The translations under genes were made by a program, and so were the position numbers. Below, piece after piece: positions 43,423-55,848 of a DNA stretch of 60,727 nt (positions are counted from its first letter, which is position 1; every line of letters begins with the position of its first letter). Under the pieces are notes generated by a model that was given only the letters and a program-made list of their open reading frames with translations, made no database searches and was not told where the DNA came from. The stretch lies in the NCBI GenBank assembly GCA_947381965.1, contig CANCXX010000027.1:1-60727 (forward strand). Direction: 5' to 3'. The DNA is from an uncultured bacterium (lineage in GTDB: Bacteria; Bacillota; Clostridia; Lachnospirales; Lachnospiraceae).

Positions 43423-43899
43423 TTAGCCTTCCCCACCGCCTAATGCCAGATAATCCCGAAGCACCGGAATATGTGTCTCAACAATATTGACTTGCTGCAA
43501 TTCTTCCCTGGTAAAAAAATGCAGTTCCGTGGATTCATTGCCGCAATACAGTAAGGGTTTTTCACTTAATCTTACTTGGAAAACCGCCATAATAGACCTG
43601 TATATATTTCCGTCAGGATAACTGATAATAATAGACGGATCATCATACAGCTTAAACCCGGTCAGCATATCAGGGTGCAGGCATAAAGACGTCTCTTCCC
43701 TTACCTCACGGACAGCGCATTCTATTATAGACTCATCATTGTTAAGACTTCCGCCGATAATCGCCCACCGGTCGCTGTCTTTTCTATGCTCCAAAAGCAA
43801 CCGGTCTTCAAACACAATACAAACGGTTGCACCTATCAAATTAGGTTTATTGGGTTTGGGAGCATTCTTATCACGATAATAAAACTTTGCGTCAGCCAT
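43423..43899 (-). CDS. NUDIX hydrolase
   Basis: A 158-aa pyrophosphohydrolase. The Nudix box GX5EX7REXXEE is complete: Gly50, Glu56, Arg64, Glu65, Glu68 and Glu69 (GSLNNDES, then CAVREVREETSL). The N terminus, TVCIVFEDRLLLEHRK, is the typical first strand. It hydrolyses a nucleoside diphosphate-linked compound; the substrate is not predictable. Confidence 0.9.
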   Translation of the reverse strand: MADAKFYYRDKNAPKPNKPNLIGATVCIVFEDRLLLEHRKDSDRWAIIGGSLNNDESIIECAVREVREETSLCLHPDMLTGFKLYDDPSIIISYPDGNIYRSIMAVFQVRLSEKPLLYCGNESTELHFFTREELQQVNIVETHIPVLRDYLALGGGEG

Positions 43900-44022: not shown

Positions 44023-44826
44023 CTACGAACTTGCACTATTATAATGTTTTAATCCCTGCTTCCAAAAAACCCCGGTGATAGCAGAGAATATTACCACAAT
44101 CCCCATTCCATAAGCCGCCATCTGAAAATCCATTTCACCTATTATCCTTTGCACAGGCAAAGTCGCCATAATTCCATAAGGCAGAATAAGATAAAAAATT
44201 ACCTTATATCCTCCATAAAAAGCAATTCCGGGAAGCTTCATACACAAATCAATACATGCTTCCTCCATCTGCTCAAGGCGTGCCATTGAGACAATGTACA
44301 AGGAGACGGCGCGGATAATCACTGCCATCTCATAATATAATACTGTCATAATAAGCACCCAAAAGCCATAGCTGATGACCGCCGCAAACGACAACCGCAT
44401 ATGCCGAATATGAATGCCATAACCAATGATGCAAACACTCATAATAATTAAGGGTATGGAGCCTGGACTGATATTTTCAAAAGTCAGTCGCAGCAAGGGA
44501 CTAACTGGCTTTGTCAGGTATAAGTCCAGCTCGCCGGACCGGACTTTATATGGTATACTGTTTATTCCAAAAAAATAAATGGTCATGTTGAGGGCATTGA
44601 TCAGAGAAAAGGTACCAATGTATGCAATCATTTCTCCCCTCCCCCAGCTTCCGATGGCGTCCACATGGGAATACACCACTCCAAATGCCATTAATTGAAT
44701 TAAAAACAGGCTTCCATCTATAAAAAAAGGGGCAATAAAATCCATCCGAAAAACCATTAATCCGTGCATTCTCAAAAAAAACATTTCCCTTATCACACGC
44801 ATATTCTTCTTTACATTCCTTATCAT
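44023..44826 (-). CDS. ABC-2 family exporter permease (COG3694-like)
   Basis: A 267-aa integral membrane protein with six helices. It is the last gene of a three-gene exporter. LDLYLTKPVSPLLRLTFENISPGS is characteristic of this permease type. The start overlaps the end of the second permease gene by four bases. This family of ATPase plus two dissimilar permeases is known as an uncharacterised drug or viologen exporter type. Confidence 0.85.
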   Translation of the reverse strand: MIRNVKKNMRVIREMFFLRMHGLMVFRMDFIAPFFIDGSLFLIQLMAFGVVYSHVDAIGSWGRGEMIAYIGTFSLINALNMTIYFFGINSIPYKVRSGELDLYLTKPVSPLLRLTFENISPGSIPLIIMSVCIIGYGIHIRHMRLSFAAVISYGFWVLIMTVLYYEMAVIIRAVSLYIVSMARLEQMEEACIDLCMKLPGIAFYGGYKVIFYLILPYGIMATLPVQRIIGEMDFQMAAYGMGIVVIFSAITGVFWKQGLKHYNSASS

Positions 44827-45617
44827 ATTCCCACCCCGTCATACTTTCTAAGATATTTTTTCCATGTGACACTGATAAAAACCTGTATTACCAGGCACCA
44901 GCAGACAATAACCGCAATTCCCGGAATCGCCTCCTCTTTACACTTCCCGGTAAATAGCATTGCCGGAAGATAGGTAACATAATAAAAAGGCAATAACCGC
45001 ATTATCTTTATAATTACCTCCGGGAATAATGCAAGGGGGACAATGCTTCCTGTAACTAATGCAACAAGATTATTCTTAATCATCAGAAAGGTGCCTATTC
45101 CCTGATATTTTAATGTGAGAAGACCTAAAAAATAATTTAACTGCACCATAAATAGCATTCCAATTACCGACATAATCACCGCACACAAAATAACCCATCC
45201 ATTAGAGGCAAACACAAAATCAATTTGAAATACAAAAATCCACACAATGGCCGCCATAAAGTCAAATGCCATATAAAACATTACCACTCCCAGCTCCATT
45301 GCCATAAAATACTTCTCTATTCCCACTGGGATAACCATATATTTTGAAAATGTACCATTACGTATTCTGTCATGAATTTCAGCGCTGATTCCCTGGGACA
45401 TCTCCAGCTGGGATAAAAATGAACTGATAATATAATAAGACAACATCCCGTGAAATGTAAACTCCCCAATTAACTCCCTGTTTTTAAAAACCATCCCCCA
45501 TAAGAGATAAGCAAAGAGAATTTTTGATATGGTAAAAATCATATTAAATACCGCATCCGCTCTCCATACAATCTGTGTTTTCATATATGTTTTGGAAACT
45601 TCAAAATACTTTCCCAT
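44823..45617 (-). CDS. ABC-2 family exporter permease (COG4587-like)
   Basis: A 264-aa protein with six helices and the loop RIRNGTFSKYMVIPVGIEKYFMA, a relative of the next permease. It forms the membrane channel with it. It starts one base from the stop codon of the ATPase gene, so it is translationally coupled. Confidence 0.85.
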   Translation of the reverse strand: MGKYFEVSKTYMKTQIVWRADAVFNMIFTISKILFAYLLWGMVFKNRELIGEFTFHGMLSYYIISSFLSQLEMSQGISAEIHDRIRNGTFSKYMVIPVGIEKYFMAMELGVVMFYMAFDFMAAIVWIFVFQIDFVFASNGWVILCAVIMSVIGMLFMVQLNYFLGLLTLKYQGIGTFLMIKNNLVALVTGSIVPLALFPEVIIKIMRLLPFYYVTYLPAMLFTGKCKEEAIPGIAVIVCWCLVIQVFISVTWKKYLRKYDGVGI

Positions 45618-45618
45618 G

Positions 45619-46605
45619 TCATTCCTCTCCTTTCCGGTAAATTCTTTCTACTATCACTCCTACCTCTTCCTCTTCCACCGCAATGTCATTGGGTTCATAT
45701 TCCATAAGCTCTGATAACAGGTCTTTGGCAGAGTGTTTCGGTACTTCATACACTTTTTTATGGGGCGTATCTTCCGTCAAAAGGACATCCTGCGTTTTAA
45801 AGATAAGGTTCCCTGTAGGTTCGCCAAATGTAGCGATAATCTTTTTATTTTTTTGATATCTGTCAAATAATTCTTCTGTAGCTCCATCATAGATTTTCAT
45901 TCCATGATTAATAACAACCGTCCTCTTACACAATACCTTAATATCGTCCATGTAATGAGATGTCAGAATAATTGTAGTGCCATTTTTCTCATTAATCTCT
46001 TTTAAAAACCTGCGTATCTGTCTGGCTGCCACTGCGTCCAGGCCAATTGTAGGCTCATCCAGAAATAATATTTTCGGATTATGAAGCAATGATACAATAA
46101 GCTCCATTTTCATCCTTTCTCCCAGTGACAGCGTTCTTACCTGGACATCCATCAGCTCTGCAACTCCGAAAAGCTCCACAAAATACTTTTTATTCTTTTG
46201 GAATTGTTCCTCAGAGATTTCATATATTTCCTTAAACAGGCGCAGTGTATCATTTACCGTCAGTTCAAAAAATAACTGGCTTTTCTGCCCCATCACAACA
46301 GCGTATTGTTTTTTAAACTCATTCTTTAAGTCATTGGGATAATAGGAGAGCACATCAATCTTTCCCTCTGTAGGCGCAATAATTCCGGTCAGCATTTTAA
46401 TTAATGTGGTTTTTCCAGCTCCGTTGGGTCCAATCAGCCCAATAAACTCGCCCTGTTTTACGGATAAATCTATATGATTGACAGCCATTTTTTCTTCGTA
46501 GCTTCGATGCCACAAGCTGCCTATGCTTCCACGGATTCCCTCCGCTTTTTTATACCTTTTATATTTTTTTACCAGATTGTTTATTTGGATCACAGTATCA
46601 TTCAT
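45619..46605 (-). CDS. ABC exporter ATPase (COG4586-like)
   Basis: A 328-aa ATPase with Walker A GPNGAGKTT, a Q-loop GQKSQLFFELTV, the signature LSLGERMKMEL and Walker B ILFLDEPTIGLD, then H-loop LTSHYMDDI. The C-terminal 90 residues form the extension typical of COG4586. GAGGAAG lies seven bases before the ATG. It is the first gene of the exporter and is preceded by a long leader with a short ORF and two terminators (46712-47069). Confidence 0.93.
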   Translation of the reverse strand: MNDTVIQINNLVKKYKRYKKAEGIRGSIGSLWHRSYEEKMAVNHIDLSVKQGEFIGLIGPNGAGKTTLIKMLTGIIAPTEGKIDVLSYYPNDLKNEFKKQYAVVMGQKSQLFFELTVNDTLRLFKEIYEISEEQFQKNKKYFVELFGVAELMDVQVRTLSLGERMKMELIVSLLHNPKILFLDEPTIGLDAVAARQIRRFLKEINEKNGTTIILTSHYMDDIKVLCKRTVVINHGMKIYDGATEELFDRYQKNKKIIATFGEPTGNLIFKTQDVLLTEDTPHKKVYEVPKHSAKDLLSELMEYEPNDIAVEEEEVGVIVERIYRKGEE

Positions 46606-46711
46606 TTTTTACTTCCTCTCTTTTCCATACACTTTTACCCTTCCAAGCCACACTCTTTACAGCACAAAGCCGCCCTGCTCCGCATTTAAAAAGCGTTTAT
46701 ACCTTACAGAC

Positions 46712-46758
46712 AAAAAAAGACCATGGCTCCCCTGTAAATACTGGATACCATGGTCTTT
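46712..46758 (-). terminator. Leader terminator 2
   Basis: AAAGACCATGG and CCATGGTCTTT pair perfectly around a 21-base loop, followed on the minus strand by TTTT. It lies about 107 bases before the ATPase start codon. A strong rho-independent terminator that expression of the exporter must bypass. Confidence 0.75.
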
Positions 46759-46827
46759 CCATCTAAAGTAAACGGCAAAAAATATGACGTTTTCTATAAA
46801 AATGATAAATAATCTATTTTAAAAATC

Positions 46828-46851
46828 AAAAAACATGACCATACCGTCATG
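46828..46851 (-). terminator. Leader terminator 1
   Basis: CATGAC-GGTATG-GTCATG followed by TTTTTT on the minus strand, with AAAAATCA/TGATTTTT flanks that could extend the stem. Confidence 0.7.
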
Positions 46852-46905
46852 CTTAAATGATTTTTAATTATATACCATAATATTAAGCAATTGTAAGGCG
46901 AAAAC

Positions 46906-46927
46906 GCTGACCTTCCATACAGTCAGC
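46906..46927 (-). promoter_or_regulatory. Leader hairpin
   Basis: GCTGAC-N10-GTCAGC, a 6-bp stem between the 12-aa ORF and terminator 1. It could be the anti-terminator or pause hairpin of an attenuator. Confidence 0.4.
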
Positions 46928-46974
46928 AAATGGGCGGACTTCCAGCCTAAAACTAAAAATCATCCCTGCAATAT

Positions 46975-47013
46975 TTACTTTGCACTTTTCTCCATTACAA
47001 CCACAATTGACAT
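46975..47013 (-). CDS. 12-aa leader peptide ORF upstream of exporter
   Basis: A minimal frame, MSIVVVMEKSAK, with a strong AGGAGG eight bases upstream and a sigma-A promoter (47040-47069) about 30 bases before it. It lies about 370 bases before the ABC ATPase gene, on the same strand, with hairpins and two terminators between. It resembles the leader peptides that control drug exporters by ribosome stalling. Whether it is translated is unknown. Confidence 0.5.
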   Translation of the reverse strand: MSIVVVMEKSAK

Positions 47014-47039
47014 ACAAAAAATCCTCCTAAATTTTTTTA

Positions 47040-47069
47040 ATATTAACATGCTATCCGTTTTACTGTCAA
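47040..47069 (-). promoter_or_regulatory. Promoter of exporter leader
   Basis: On the minus strand TTGACA (47064-47069), an 18-bp spacer and TAATAT (47040-47045). A strong sigma-A type promoter pointing at the 12-aa ORF and the exporter operon. Confidence 0.7.
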
Positions 47070-47109
47070 GCAGGAAATATGCATAATCGCACAAATCAAT
47101 GTTCAAAGA

Positions 47110-47255
47110 GTTACTATTCACGGCCTGGAAGCCGCTCATAGTAACAATTCGGAGCGATATTCCAAGTTTTGCTTCGCAAAAATCGCCCCTCACTCCTGCA
47201 TCATGTTCTCACGGAATGCGCAACAAGTGCACATTCCTGACCCGTGAATAGTAAC
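47110..47255. mobile_element. 146-bp MITE-like element B, copy 1
   Basis: Terminal inverted repeats GTTACTATTCACGG and CCGTGAATAGTAAC. No transposase. The second copy, 55562-55707, is the same length, in the opposite orientation and almost identical. It lies between the AAA ATPase gene and the exporter leader promoter. A translated read-through of it (MRGDFCEAKLG...) is an artefact. Confidence 0.85.
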
Positions 47256-47285
47256 TTCAAGAACGCTATTGGACTTACCTCATTA

Positions 47286-48140
47286 TTAAAATTCCTTTTC
47301 ATGCTTTTTAAAAAAGTCATAATAGGCGCGGACATTCGTAAGGCGGCTCCAGGGTTTTACATCCACAATTTCTTCATCCATATCATATATTTTTGCACCC
47401 TTCATAGACAAAAGAAAGGGCGAATGGGTAGCCATAATAAACTGACATCCGAAAAAGCGCGCAGAATCTTCCAGAAACTTTAACAGCTCCTGTTGCTTTT
47501 CGGGCGACAGACTGTTTTCCGGCTCATCCAGCAGGTATAATCCGTCATCCCTAATCTTATCTGCAAAATAAAGGAATGCACTTTCCCCATTTGAATGCTC
47601 CCTTACATTGTTTTTTACATTTTTTCGCACGTATTTTGACTGTGTATTACTTCTTGCCGTAGTCACCTTTTTCAAATGCTCATAGTCATCCAGCGACTTC
47701 ATCTGGAAATGGGAATATTTAACATCCAAATAGTCCAAAAGCAGTTCATCTCTCTTCAAATTAATTCCATCGTTGACGCTGCGGATGTTCAGCATAAAGT
47801 CAAAAACATCATCACTGGTGATAATCCTGCTGCCTTTCGGTATTTTCTGTTCTTCTTCAAACTGACACAGCTTCGTATAATCCTCAAAAAAATTAGAGCG
47901 GTTATACAGCGTATCCCGCTCAAGACCCAGTTTTTCCGCAATCACATTCAGCGCTGTGGTTTTCCCAGAGCCATTGCCTCCGTACAGTATAGTGACCGGC
48001 TCAAAATCCAGCCTTTCCAGATGATGCTTTGATAATATCTGAAAAGGATAATATGTATCATAACAGGTTCTTTTCTGTGCAAAAGTAAAATCATACTCTG
48101 CCTCCGCACAGGGAAATTTAAAAGATGACAAATAAACCAT
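47286..48140 (-). CDS. AAA family ATPase (OLD/RecF-like)
   Basis: A 284-aa ATPase with Walker A YGGNGSGKTT at about 54, a long central helical region, the ABC-like signature-region HSNGESAFLYF, Walker B LYLLDEPENSLS and MATHSPFLLS. It resembles stand-alone AAA_21/OLD-type ATPases that occur both in housekeeping and in defence contexts. No partner nuclease or toxin gene is adjacent. AGGAG lies five bases upstream of the start. Confidence 0.85.
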   Translation of the reverse strand: MVYLSSFKFPCAEAEYDFTFAQKRTCYDTYYPFQILSKHHLERLDFEPVTILYGGNGSGKTTALNVIAEKLGLERDTLYNRSNFFEDYTKLCQFEEEQKIPKGSRIITSDDVFDFMLNIRSVNDGINLKRDELLLDYLDVKYSHFQMKSLDDYEHLKKVTTARSNTQSKYVRKNVKNNVREHSNGESAFLYFADKIRDDGLYLLDEPENSLSPEKQQELLKFLEDSARFFGCQFIMATHSPFLLSMKGAKIYDMDEEIVDVKPWSRLTNVRAYYDFFKKHEKEF

Positions 48141-55561: not shown

Positions 55562-55707
55562 GTTACTATTCACGGGTCAGGAATGTGCACTTGTTGCGCA
55601 TTCCGTGAGAACATGATGCAGGAGTGAGGGGCGATTTTTGCGAAGCAAAACTTGGAATATCGCTCCGAATTGTTACTATGAGCGGCTCCCCGGCCGTGAA
55701 TAGTAAC
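55562..55707. mobile_element. 146-bp MITE-like element B, copy 2
   Basis: Inverted with respect to copy 1 (47110-47255), the same length and nearly the same sequence, ends GTTACTATTCACGG/CCGTGAATAGTAAC. Differences cluster near one end (GCTCCCCGG here, GCTTCCAGG in copy 1). Confidence 0.85.
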
Positions 55708-55848
55708 TAATATTGGTCTGCTGTAAATTTTCATGTGAAATATATTGCGGGCTGCATACAATGGCAGTTATAATATGATTAATAGCTTAATTAAAGAAAC
55801 TTGGCGCGTGCGAAATTCTTTAAAAGAATTTTAGAATGGAGAAACCCA

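Follow-up and report, generated by a model that had tools for sequence, protein, structure and literature searches.

A conserved leader with a short ORF, probably a ribosome-stall-controlled attenuator, ahead of an ABC exporter and of Smr-less MutS2 genes in Lachnospiraceae and their relatives

Described leaders of the same plan and the leader of the exporter operon

In Bacillus subtilis, a leader ORF lies ahead of bmrCD, which encodes a heterodimeric ABC exporter. The vmlR leader of the same species carries a 3-codon uORF inside a stem that serves as anti-antiterminator, and a stall on the uORF frees the antiterminator arm; one terminator and a hairpin sequestering the Shine-Dalgarno (SD) sequence complete this leader (excerpts of PMC9226507). 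In Listeria monocytogenes, the drug-induced leader rli80 of hflXr (lmo0762) combines a short ORF in the anti-antiterminator region with an antiterminator and an intrinsic terminator, and its target is a homologue of a ribosome-splitting factor, of the HflX type; its peptide is 14 aa long and contains RLR (excerpts of PMC6310831). Stalled ribosomes in B. subtilis are also split by the MutS2 ATPase, and strains without mutS2 are hypersensitive to chloramphenicol, tetracycline and erythromycin, as described in the accessible parts of PMC10897456.

The leader described here was found in front of an ABC exporter operon in the window, the whole stretch of 60,727 nucleotides that was analysed, from an uncultured member of the Lachnospiraceae. 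All of its features lie on the minus strand. Transcription would start from a sigma-70-type promoter, TTGACA-N18-TAATAT with a TG ahead of the −10 box (47040..47069), visible in the sequence and found by the promoter scan. It is followed by the SD sequence AGGAGG (47023..47028) and by the leader ORF of 12 codons, ATG to TAA, MSIVVVMEKSAK (46975..47013). The ORF overlaps a structured element (46864..47026), which is matched by the covariance models R1 and R2 described below and is multibranched, closed by a long stem, P1. The 5' arm of P1 is formed by the codons of the leader ORF from ATG to AAA (46987..47013) and is proposed, from folding and covariation, as the anti-antiterminator arm. Its 3' arm, TTTTCGCCTTACAATTGCTTAATATT (46879..46904), lies about 110 nt downstream and is the proposed antiterminator arm, the alternative partner of both terminators. 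A small hairpin encloses the leader stop codon (46967..46984), and the junction is occupied by P2 (46932..46966; GGG...CCC, with a variable apical part) and P3 (46906..46927; GCTGAC...GTCAGC), which is variable and covarying and is missing in some members. The stop-codon hairpin and P2 are helices of the fitted alignment.

Two intrinsic terminators follow. Terminator 1 (46831..46854) was located by the terminator scan; terminator 2, GAAAGACCATGGTATCC...GGAGCCATGGTCTTTTTTT (46716..46759, ends approximate; −22.4 kcal/mol), was missed by the simple scan but is readily recognised in the sequence. A distance of 107 bases separates the end of its T-run from the ATG (46605) of the exporter ATPase gene (ABC_tran, 45619..46605; best NCBIfam model drrA, below its cut-off). 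Two permease genes come next (44823..45617 and 44023..44826), both assigned to ABC2_membrane_6 by the family scan. In the scan of positions 46200-47500, no promoter-like site was listed on the minus strand between terminator 2 and the exporter ATPase gene; a weak site with 9 of 12 matching positions was listed on this strand between the two terminators (46829-46802). The promoter, AGGAGG, 12-codon ORF, hairpins and two terminators of the original prediction were thus all found in place, as was its reading that no clear promoter separates the second terminator from the exporter gene.

Judged from its sequence, the leader has the anatomical features of the uORF attenuators of the vmlR/hflXr type: a conserved ORF with an SD sequence, a stem overlapping this ORF, and an intrinsic terminator. 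It resembles the vmlR leader in plan, with the uORF inside a stem; its ORF has 12 codons, its element is multibranched and it has two terminators, in contrast to vmlR (excerpts of PMC9226507). With rli80 it shares a short ORF in the putative anti-antiterminator region, a candidate antiterminator and an intrinsic terminator, and, in most relatives, a target homologous to a ribosome-splitting factor. It is a different RNA, and its targets are an Smr-less MutS2 or an ABC exporter and not an HflX-type protein (excerpts of PMC6310831). The RLR (Arg-Leu-Arg) drug-arrest motif was absent, by eye, among the listed leader peptides. The window shares with bmrCD a leader ORF in front of an ABC exporter; the exporter is of another family here, with ABC2_membrane_6 permeases. 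The RNA family is new, and the type of mechanism is already known.

The stretch is probably a transcription attenuator of a translation-stress operon, controlled by ribosome stalling and run by translation of the leader ORF. During normal growth, ribosomes would finish the 12 codons and depart, P1 would form and lock away its own 3' arm, and RNA polymerase would stop at terminator 1 or 2 (off). A ribosome held on the first codons (M-L-x-V), for instance by a drug hindering the first peptide bonds, would keep P1 from forming. The free 3' arm could then pair with each terminator in turn, 1 first and 2 afterwards, while the terminator hairpin is still unfinished, and the operon would be transcribed (on). 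The operon would be a translation-stress set, most often with an Smr-less MutS2 paralogue that would split stalled ribosomes, and the exporter of the window would remove the offending compound. Close versions of the switch occur in many related gut bacteria, mostly ahead of the MutS2-like gene, and this suggests that cells detect with it drugs or stress by which translation is stalled.

Several further observations were made around the operon. A NUDIX gene (43423-43899, minus strand) lies about 120 bases after the exporter on the same strand and is possibly on the same transcript. A palindromic MITE-like repeat of about 146 bp is present at 47110-47255 (minus strand), ending just upstream of the leader promoter, and at 55562-55708 (plus strand), with 20 further copies of at least 97% identity in the same genome. 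The stretch between the terminators (46761-46800) is 85% identical to a hairpin, GTAAACGGCAAA...TTTGCCGTTTAC, at G000:C13:14190-14230 of the same genome.

Distribution of the leader and conservation of its ORF

The leader is real and a member of a conserved family; it is not a product of chance, because ORF, stem and terminators recur in relatives. In a DNA search of 150 genomes of the same family, 8 others than that of the window contained leader-like DNA. Of their loci, six (L010-L014 and L016) read as true leaders, each ahead of a MutS2-like gene, and the remaining matches were short. The genome of the window contains a second, diverged copy of the leader ahead of its own Smr-less MutS2 gene. 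The assembly of this genome (G000) has a listed contamination of 7.31%, and the window and the MutS2 copy are on separate contigs.

Covariance model R1, built from 8 copies out of 7 genomes, matched 31 of 397 genomes of the same family, including the 7 that had supplied the model. Model R2, built from 31 copies, matched 13 of 344 genomes of the same order (4 model suppliers and 9 new; 5 outside the family) and 2 of 341 genomes drawn from the class, namely the window's own and one of the same family. These whole-genome searches are incomplete, since the exporter leaders of genomes G136 and G163 were missed by R1 and found via the protein. With a degenerate DNA pattern, 91 loci were retrieved from a collection of 84,980 species, mostly from records labelled Lachnospiraceae or near relatives, with Parablautia intestinalis and Eubacterium plexicaudatum among the named carriers, and all 91 scored with R2; near-duplicates are among them (L149 and L153 gave identical results), and several share organisms with the genomes of the family and order searches. 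A mobile origin of the leader was considered and rejected: plasmids and phages gave no blastn match, and viral contigs gave no match to the DNA pattern.

A known RNA family was likewise rejected as the identity of the leader, Rfam scans of the window stretch and of 13 loci having produced chance-level matches alone, with none at or near the gathering score. In a literature search that covered few subscription papers, no title or abstract start described a leader before MutS2, and MutS2 and uORF never occurred together. The accessible text of PMC8632094, PMC11109978 and PMC2864571 held a single mention of mutS, concerning the crcB motif.

For the leader ORF, 116 distinct elements were drawn from 130 entries, with the exclusion of some matches (L183, L186 and L189) and of 11 loci (L154-L164). 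The original prediction had made conservation of the short ORF in relatives its own point of refutation; an ORF was present at the leader position in 116 of 116 elements and usually read M-L-x-V-x-V. Codons were counted in 115 of these, leaving out L073, where the sole ORF of sufficient length begins upstream at a GTG and the ATG gives MLA. The ORFs are 6 to 14 codons long, one-codon differences in length occur, and 109 of 115 copies have an SD-like motif. In 103 of 115 copies the element is preceded, at a distance of at most 120 nt, by a loosely similar promoter pattern, a count made without a shuffled control.

Codon 2 is Leu in 110 of 115 elements, codon 3 is Ser, Ile, Asn or Thr in 111, and codon 4 is Val, Leu or Ile in 112. 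At codon 4 the variation is found mainly at the third base (entropies of 0.66, 0.17 and 1.54 bits). At position 5, Ile occurs in 44 of the 115 and Val in 39, and Ser, Asp, Asn or Thr is found in others. The same picture was obtained for the 48 elements that the exact pattern had missed. The conserved core of the peptide is thus M-L-x-V, and the proposal that the Val-Val-Val stretch of the window is a stall or valine-sensing site was not supported, with Val at position 5 in just 39 of the 115. Part of the conservation of the ORF is imposed by the pairing in P1.

With Leu, Val and Ile frequent at positions 2 to 6, the ORF could also be read as an amino-acid attenuator in which these codons sense a shortage of branched-chain amino acids. 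This is very unlikely: some members have few such codons (MLSVVK, MLSVVGE), codon 5 is variable, and the identified downstream genes encode a MutS2-like ATPase, an ABC exporter, a GNAT acetyltransferase or a methyltransferase. Valine or branched-chain sensing was rejected on these grounds, as neither a run of regulatory codons nor, among the downstream genes identified, an operon for synthesis or uptake was found. No branched-chain biosynthesis gene was seen by eye in 33 operon clusters, part of which had been scanned against family libraries.

Stem P1, the two terminators and their alternative pairing

In the model-fitted alignment, double changes were observed in 27 of the 36 pairs of P1, P2 and P3, compared with 12.1 in shuffles. 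A structure-blind alignment of 31 sequences, selected for diversity, contained 74 cells changed on both sides versus 29.2 in shuffles, a value reached by 0 of 500. Counted by pair, double changes occurred in 12, six in P3 and six in P1, which was no more than in shuffles (125/500). Covariation in the aligned sequences thus establishes the P1 stem itself, and its role would be that of an anti-antiterminator.

The leader RNA is strongly structured: none of 100 dinucleotide-shuffled versions folded as well (z −5.2). Among close members, the sequence of some parts of P2 (GCTAGAAGTCTGCCC) appears by eye to be conserved. Both features would suit a ligand-binding riboswitch, with an aptamer formed by P2 and P3, a small molecule choosing between P1 and the antiterminator, and an ORF that is incidental or couples translation. 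Such a riboswitch is improbable, given the retention of the short ORF in all 116 copies tested, the third-base variation of codon 4, the variable size of P2 and P3 with P3 lacking in some members, and the lack of an Rfam riboswitch match.

At least one terminator-like hairpin was found in 78 of 91 family regions, against 14 of 91 shuffled ones; these 91 regions are those of the 116 elements that were long enough. Terminator 1 was callable in 102 of the 116, and 82 of these passed filters on position and length; removal of 6 other hairpins and 4 duplicates left 72 records. In this set, 72.2% of cells could pair when the P1 3' arm was set against the 5' half of terminator 1, versus 33-47% when the arm was slid. 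Covariation between the two is weak: shuffled rows were still paired for 70.2%, a value equal to or above the observed one was reached in 3 of 500 shuffles, and the number of pair types was no higher than in shuffles (301/500). The original prediction had looked to relatives with the same leader and covarying terminator and antiterminator stems, of which the leader was found and the covariation holds for P1, with little of it in the pairing with terminator 1. The idea that terminator 1 is a sequence copy of the ORF was dropped, as the alignment test was not significant (p 0.056).

A ribosome held at the beginning of the ORF was imitated by masking the start region and first codons, upon which the pairing between the 3' arm and terminator 1 rose from 2.0 to 13.1 expected pairs in the 72 records; 63 of these gained more than 3 expected pairs. 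With the 5' half of terminator 1 shuffled, the masked value was 8.1; a ribosome set at the stop codon gave 5.9 expected pairs. Only a third of the 72 records beat all 20 of their own shuffles, and in the window alone the pairing with terminator 1 was not significant, 6 of 20 shuffles being as good. Terminator 1 still wins at equilibrium when the first codons are masked (mean probability 0.91), and control would therefore have to be kinetic, during transcription.

The dominance of terminator 1 at equilibrium would also be expected of a constitutive leader, in which two leaky terminators set a low level of expression and the ORF and P1 stem only insulate or stabilise the mRNA. Little likelihood is given to this explanation. 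It does not account for a conserved ORF in a stem that covaries and has a 3' arm with complementarity to terminator 1 as well as terminator 2, and the vmlR and hflXr leaders, which share the plan, are inducible according to the excerpts of PMC9226507 and PMC6310831.

The second terminator, callable in 86 of the 116 elements, is complementary in its own 5' arm to the flank of the P1 3' arm, with a mean of −8.4 kcal/mol for the predicted pairing, compared with −6.1 kcal/mol for shuffled sequences. In the window this pairing amounts to −10.7 kcal/mol, with 2 of 100 shuffles as good, and 37% of the records rank within the best 5 of 100 shuffles. The Wilcoxon values obtained for the pairings with terminators 1 and 2 ignore relatedness. 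By eye, the 3' arm of terminator 1 could also pair with the 5' arm of terminator 2 as a second antiterminator, an idea set aside in favour of the pairing between the P1 flank and terminator 2.

Two sequence features stood out by eye in this part of the leader. The apical part of P2, TTTTA-GCTAGAAGTCTGCCC (window 46966-46932), is conserved among close members and is a possible pause or binding site. The second terminators of the diverged loci L054, L053, L057, L025 and L188 share an elaborate stem (like CCACGGAAGUAGUAUGCC...GGGCAGAUACUUCCGUGG), conserved beyond the need of a terminator and perhaps a further RNA element.

Genes behind the leader and short MutS2 genes beyond the order

The first recognisable gene at the 91 pattern loci encodes an Smr-less MutS2 in 65 cases, an exporter ATPase in 16, a methyltransferase in 2 and a GNAT acetyltransferase in 1; two loci were unclassified and five had too little downstream DNA. 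At one unclassified locus (L146) the ORF after the leader resembled an ABC half-transporter by eye and had no Pfam match; at the other (L161) the reference proteins were absent from 6160 bases downstream. Reading-frame chains were drawn for the first 80 pattern loci. The gene kinds occur together: a MutS2-like gene follows the exporter at 4 of the 16 exporter loci, and GNAT and/or methyltransferase genes come after MutS2 at three loci. The searches of the family and the order found the same four kinds downstream. The first proposal, an attenuator under peptide control ahead of the exporter, is supported by the conserved ORF, the covarying stem, the terminators and complementarity of the antiterminator type; its link to exporters turned out not to be specific, most relatives having an Smr-less MutS2 in this place. 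Most of the identified downstream genes fit translation stress and not a metabolite, which argues further against the riboswitch.

Reverse searches started from the proteins. In 200 genomes of the family, all 5 exporter ATPases at E ≤ 1e-120 (from 4 genomes) carry the leader, two of which, including the window's own, had supplied the model. Of 24 Smr-less MutS2 loci, which came from 23 genomes out of 120, 19 were matched by R2 at E ≤ 5; 17 were still matched at E ≤ 0.003, and 10 of these 17 had supplied R2. A similar short ORF was seen by eye at the unmatched loci L172, L182 and L192, and at the unmatched L190 and L193 the start of the search match lay within the gene. A role of the operon in anti-phage defence was rejected, as PADLOC gave the exporter ATPase nothing beyond generic ATPase matches and did not match the permeases or the MutS2-like protein. 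For the substrate of the exporter, no paper combining two of COG4586, COG4587 and COG3694 was found.

The MutS2-like protein of the window's own genome, the sole copy scanned, scored 550 bits against the NCBIfam model mutS2 TIGR01069 (cut-off 400; positions 4-510 of 790) and matched residues 14-567 of the solved B. subtilis MutS2 (E 2e-103). In Pfam it matched MutS_V alone, without a C-terminal Smr domain; both Smr and MSSS are present in the canonical MutS2 of this genome. All 69 collected short MutS2 proteins are too short for an Smr domain, judged by their length after the Walker A motif. When the C-terminal profiles of short and canonical proteins were compared, the MSSS/KOW-like part aligned with E 0.0005 and a probability of just 32.5%. 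Compared with the B. subtilis protein, the copy of this genome shares the MutS2 core and the short proteins differ in lacking Smr; by analogy, the Smr-less form would likewise split stalled ribosomes.

Short MutS2 genes were also found beyond the order. Those in the plasmid collection belong to Paenibacillus (2), Cytobacillus and Acetoanaerobium, and the uORFs of these four records encode MTTGVLN, MSVNVLN, MLGVVLN and MSVIVLL; by eye, the first three uORFs include a stretch, GTTCTTAACTAA, with complementarity to an arm further downstream. A draw of 219 genomes from the phylum gave 46 MutS2 matches, 30 of which were taken as loci. In 13 of these the match was full-length and the frame measured about 650-710 aa; in the other 17 the match covered the core only, and most frames measured about 800 aa. 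Short and canonical genes were separated by match extent and frame length and not by a domain scan. R2 matched three short loci outside the class (L205-L207) and the copy of the window's own genome, and 0 of 17 canonical loci at E ≤ 0.1.

The upstream regions were compared for 16 short loci, made up of 12 of the 13 phylum loci, including that of the window's genome, and the 4 plasmid-collection records; L202 was left out since only 350 bases of its contig precede the match. By criteria fixed after the sequences had been seen, and thus post hoc, a consensus-like uORF lies upstream of 15 of 16 short genes and 1 of 17 canonical genes across the phylum. On the same post hoc footing, 12 of 16 short loci and 0 of 17 canonical loci combine the uORF with a terminator and a helix of −12 or lower. 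When the peptides were not filtered, the groups differed less, an ORF accompanied by such a helix being present at 15 of 16 short and 10 of 17 canonical loci. Earlier, stricter uORF detectors had returned 2 of 13 and then 8 of 16 short loci, with 0 of 17 canonical loci both times (L213 and L222 were cut off-place). These distant leaders before short MutS2 genes retain the uORF and a long helix, most of them without a model match, which again speaks against a riboswitch.

In common gut bacteria, an additional, Smr-less MutS2 paralogue placed after what is likely a sensor of ribosome stalling points to a system of ribosome rescue or resistance that can be induced, much like HflXr. Having the leader in common ties the exporter, the acetyltransferases and the methyltransferases to the same stress and is therefore a guide to their function. 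In a wider and more tentative proposal, whose chances are put slightly below even, Smr-less MutS2 would be a widespread inducible class of ribosome-splitting resistance proteins in Bacillota, silenced by a dedicated uORF attenuator. In Lachnospirales the switch would have spread to exporter, acetyltransferase and methyltransferase operons and would form an unrecognised drug-response regulon of gut bacteria.

Three MutS2-type genes contain one in-frame stop codon: the short genes at L175 (G003, TGA) and L204 (G1149, TAA) and the canonical gene at L217 (G1181, TGA).
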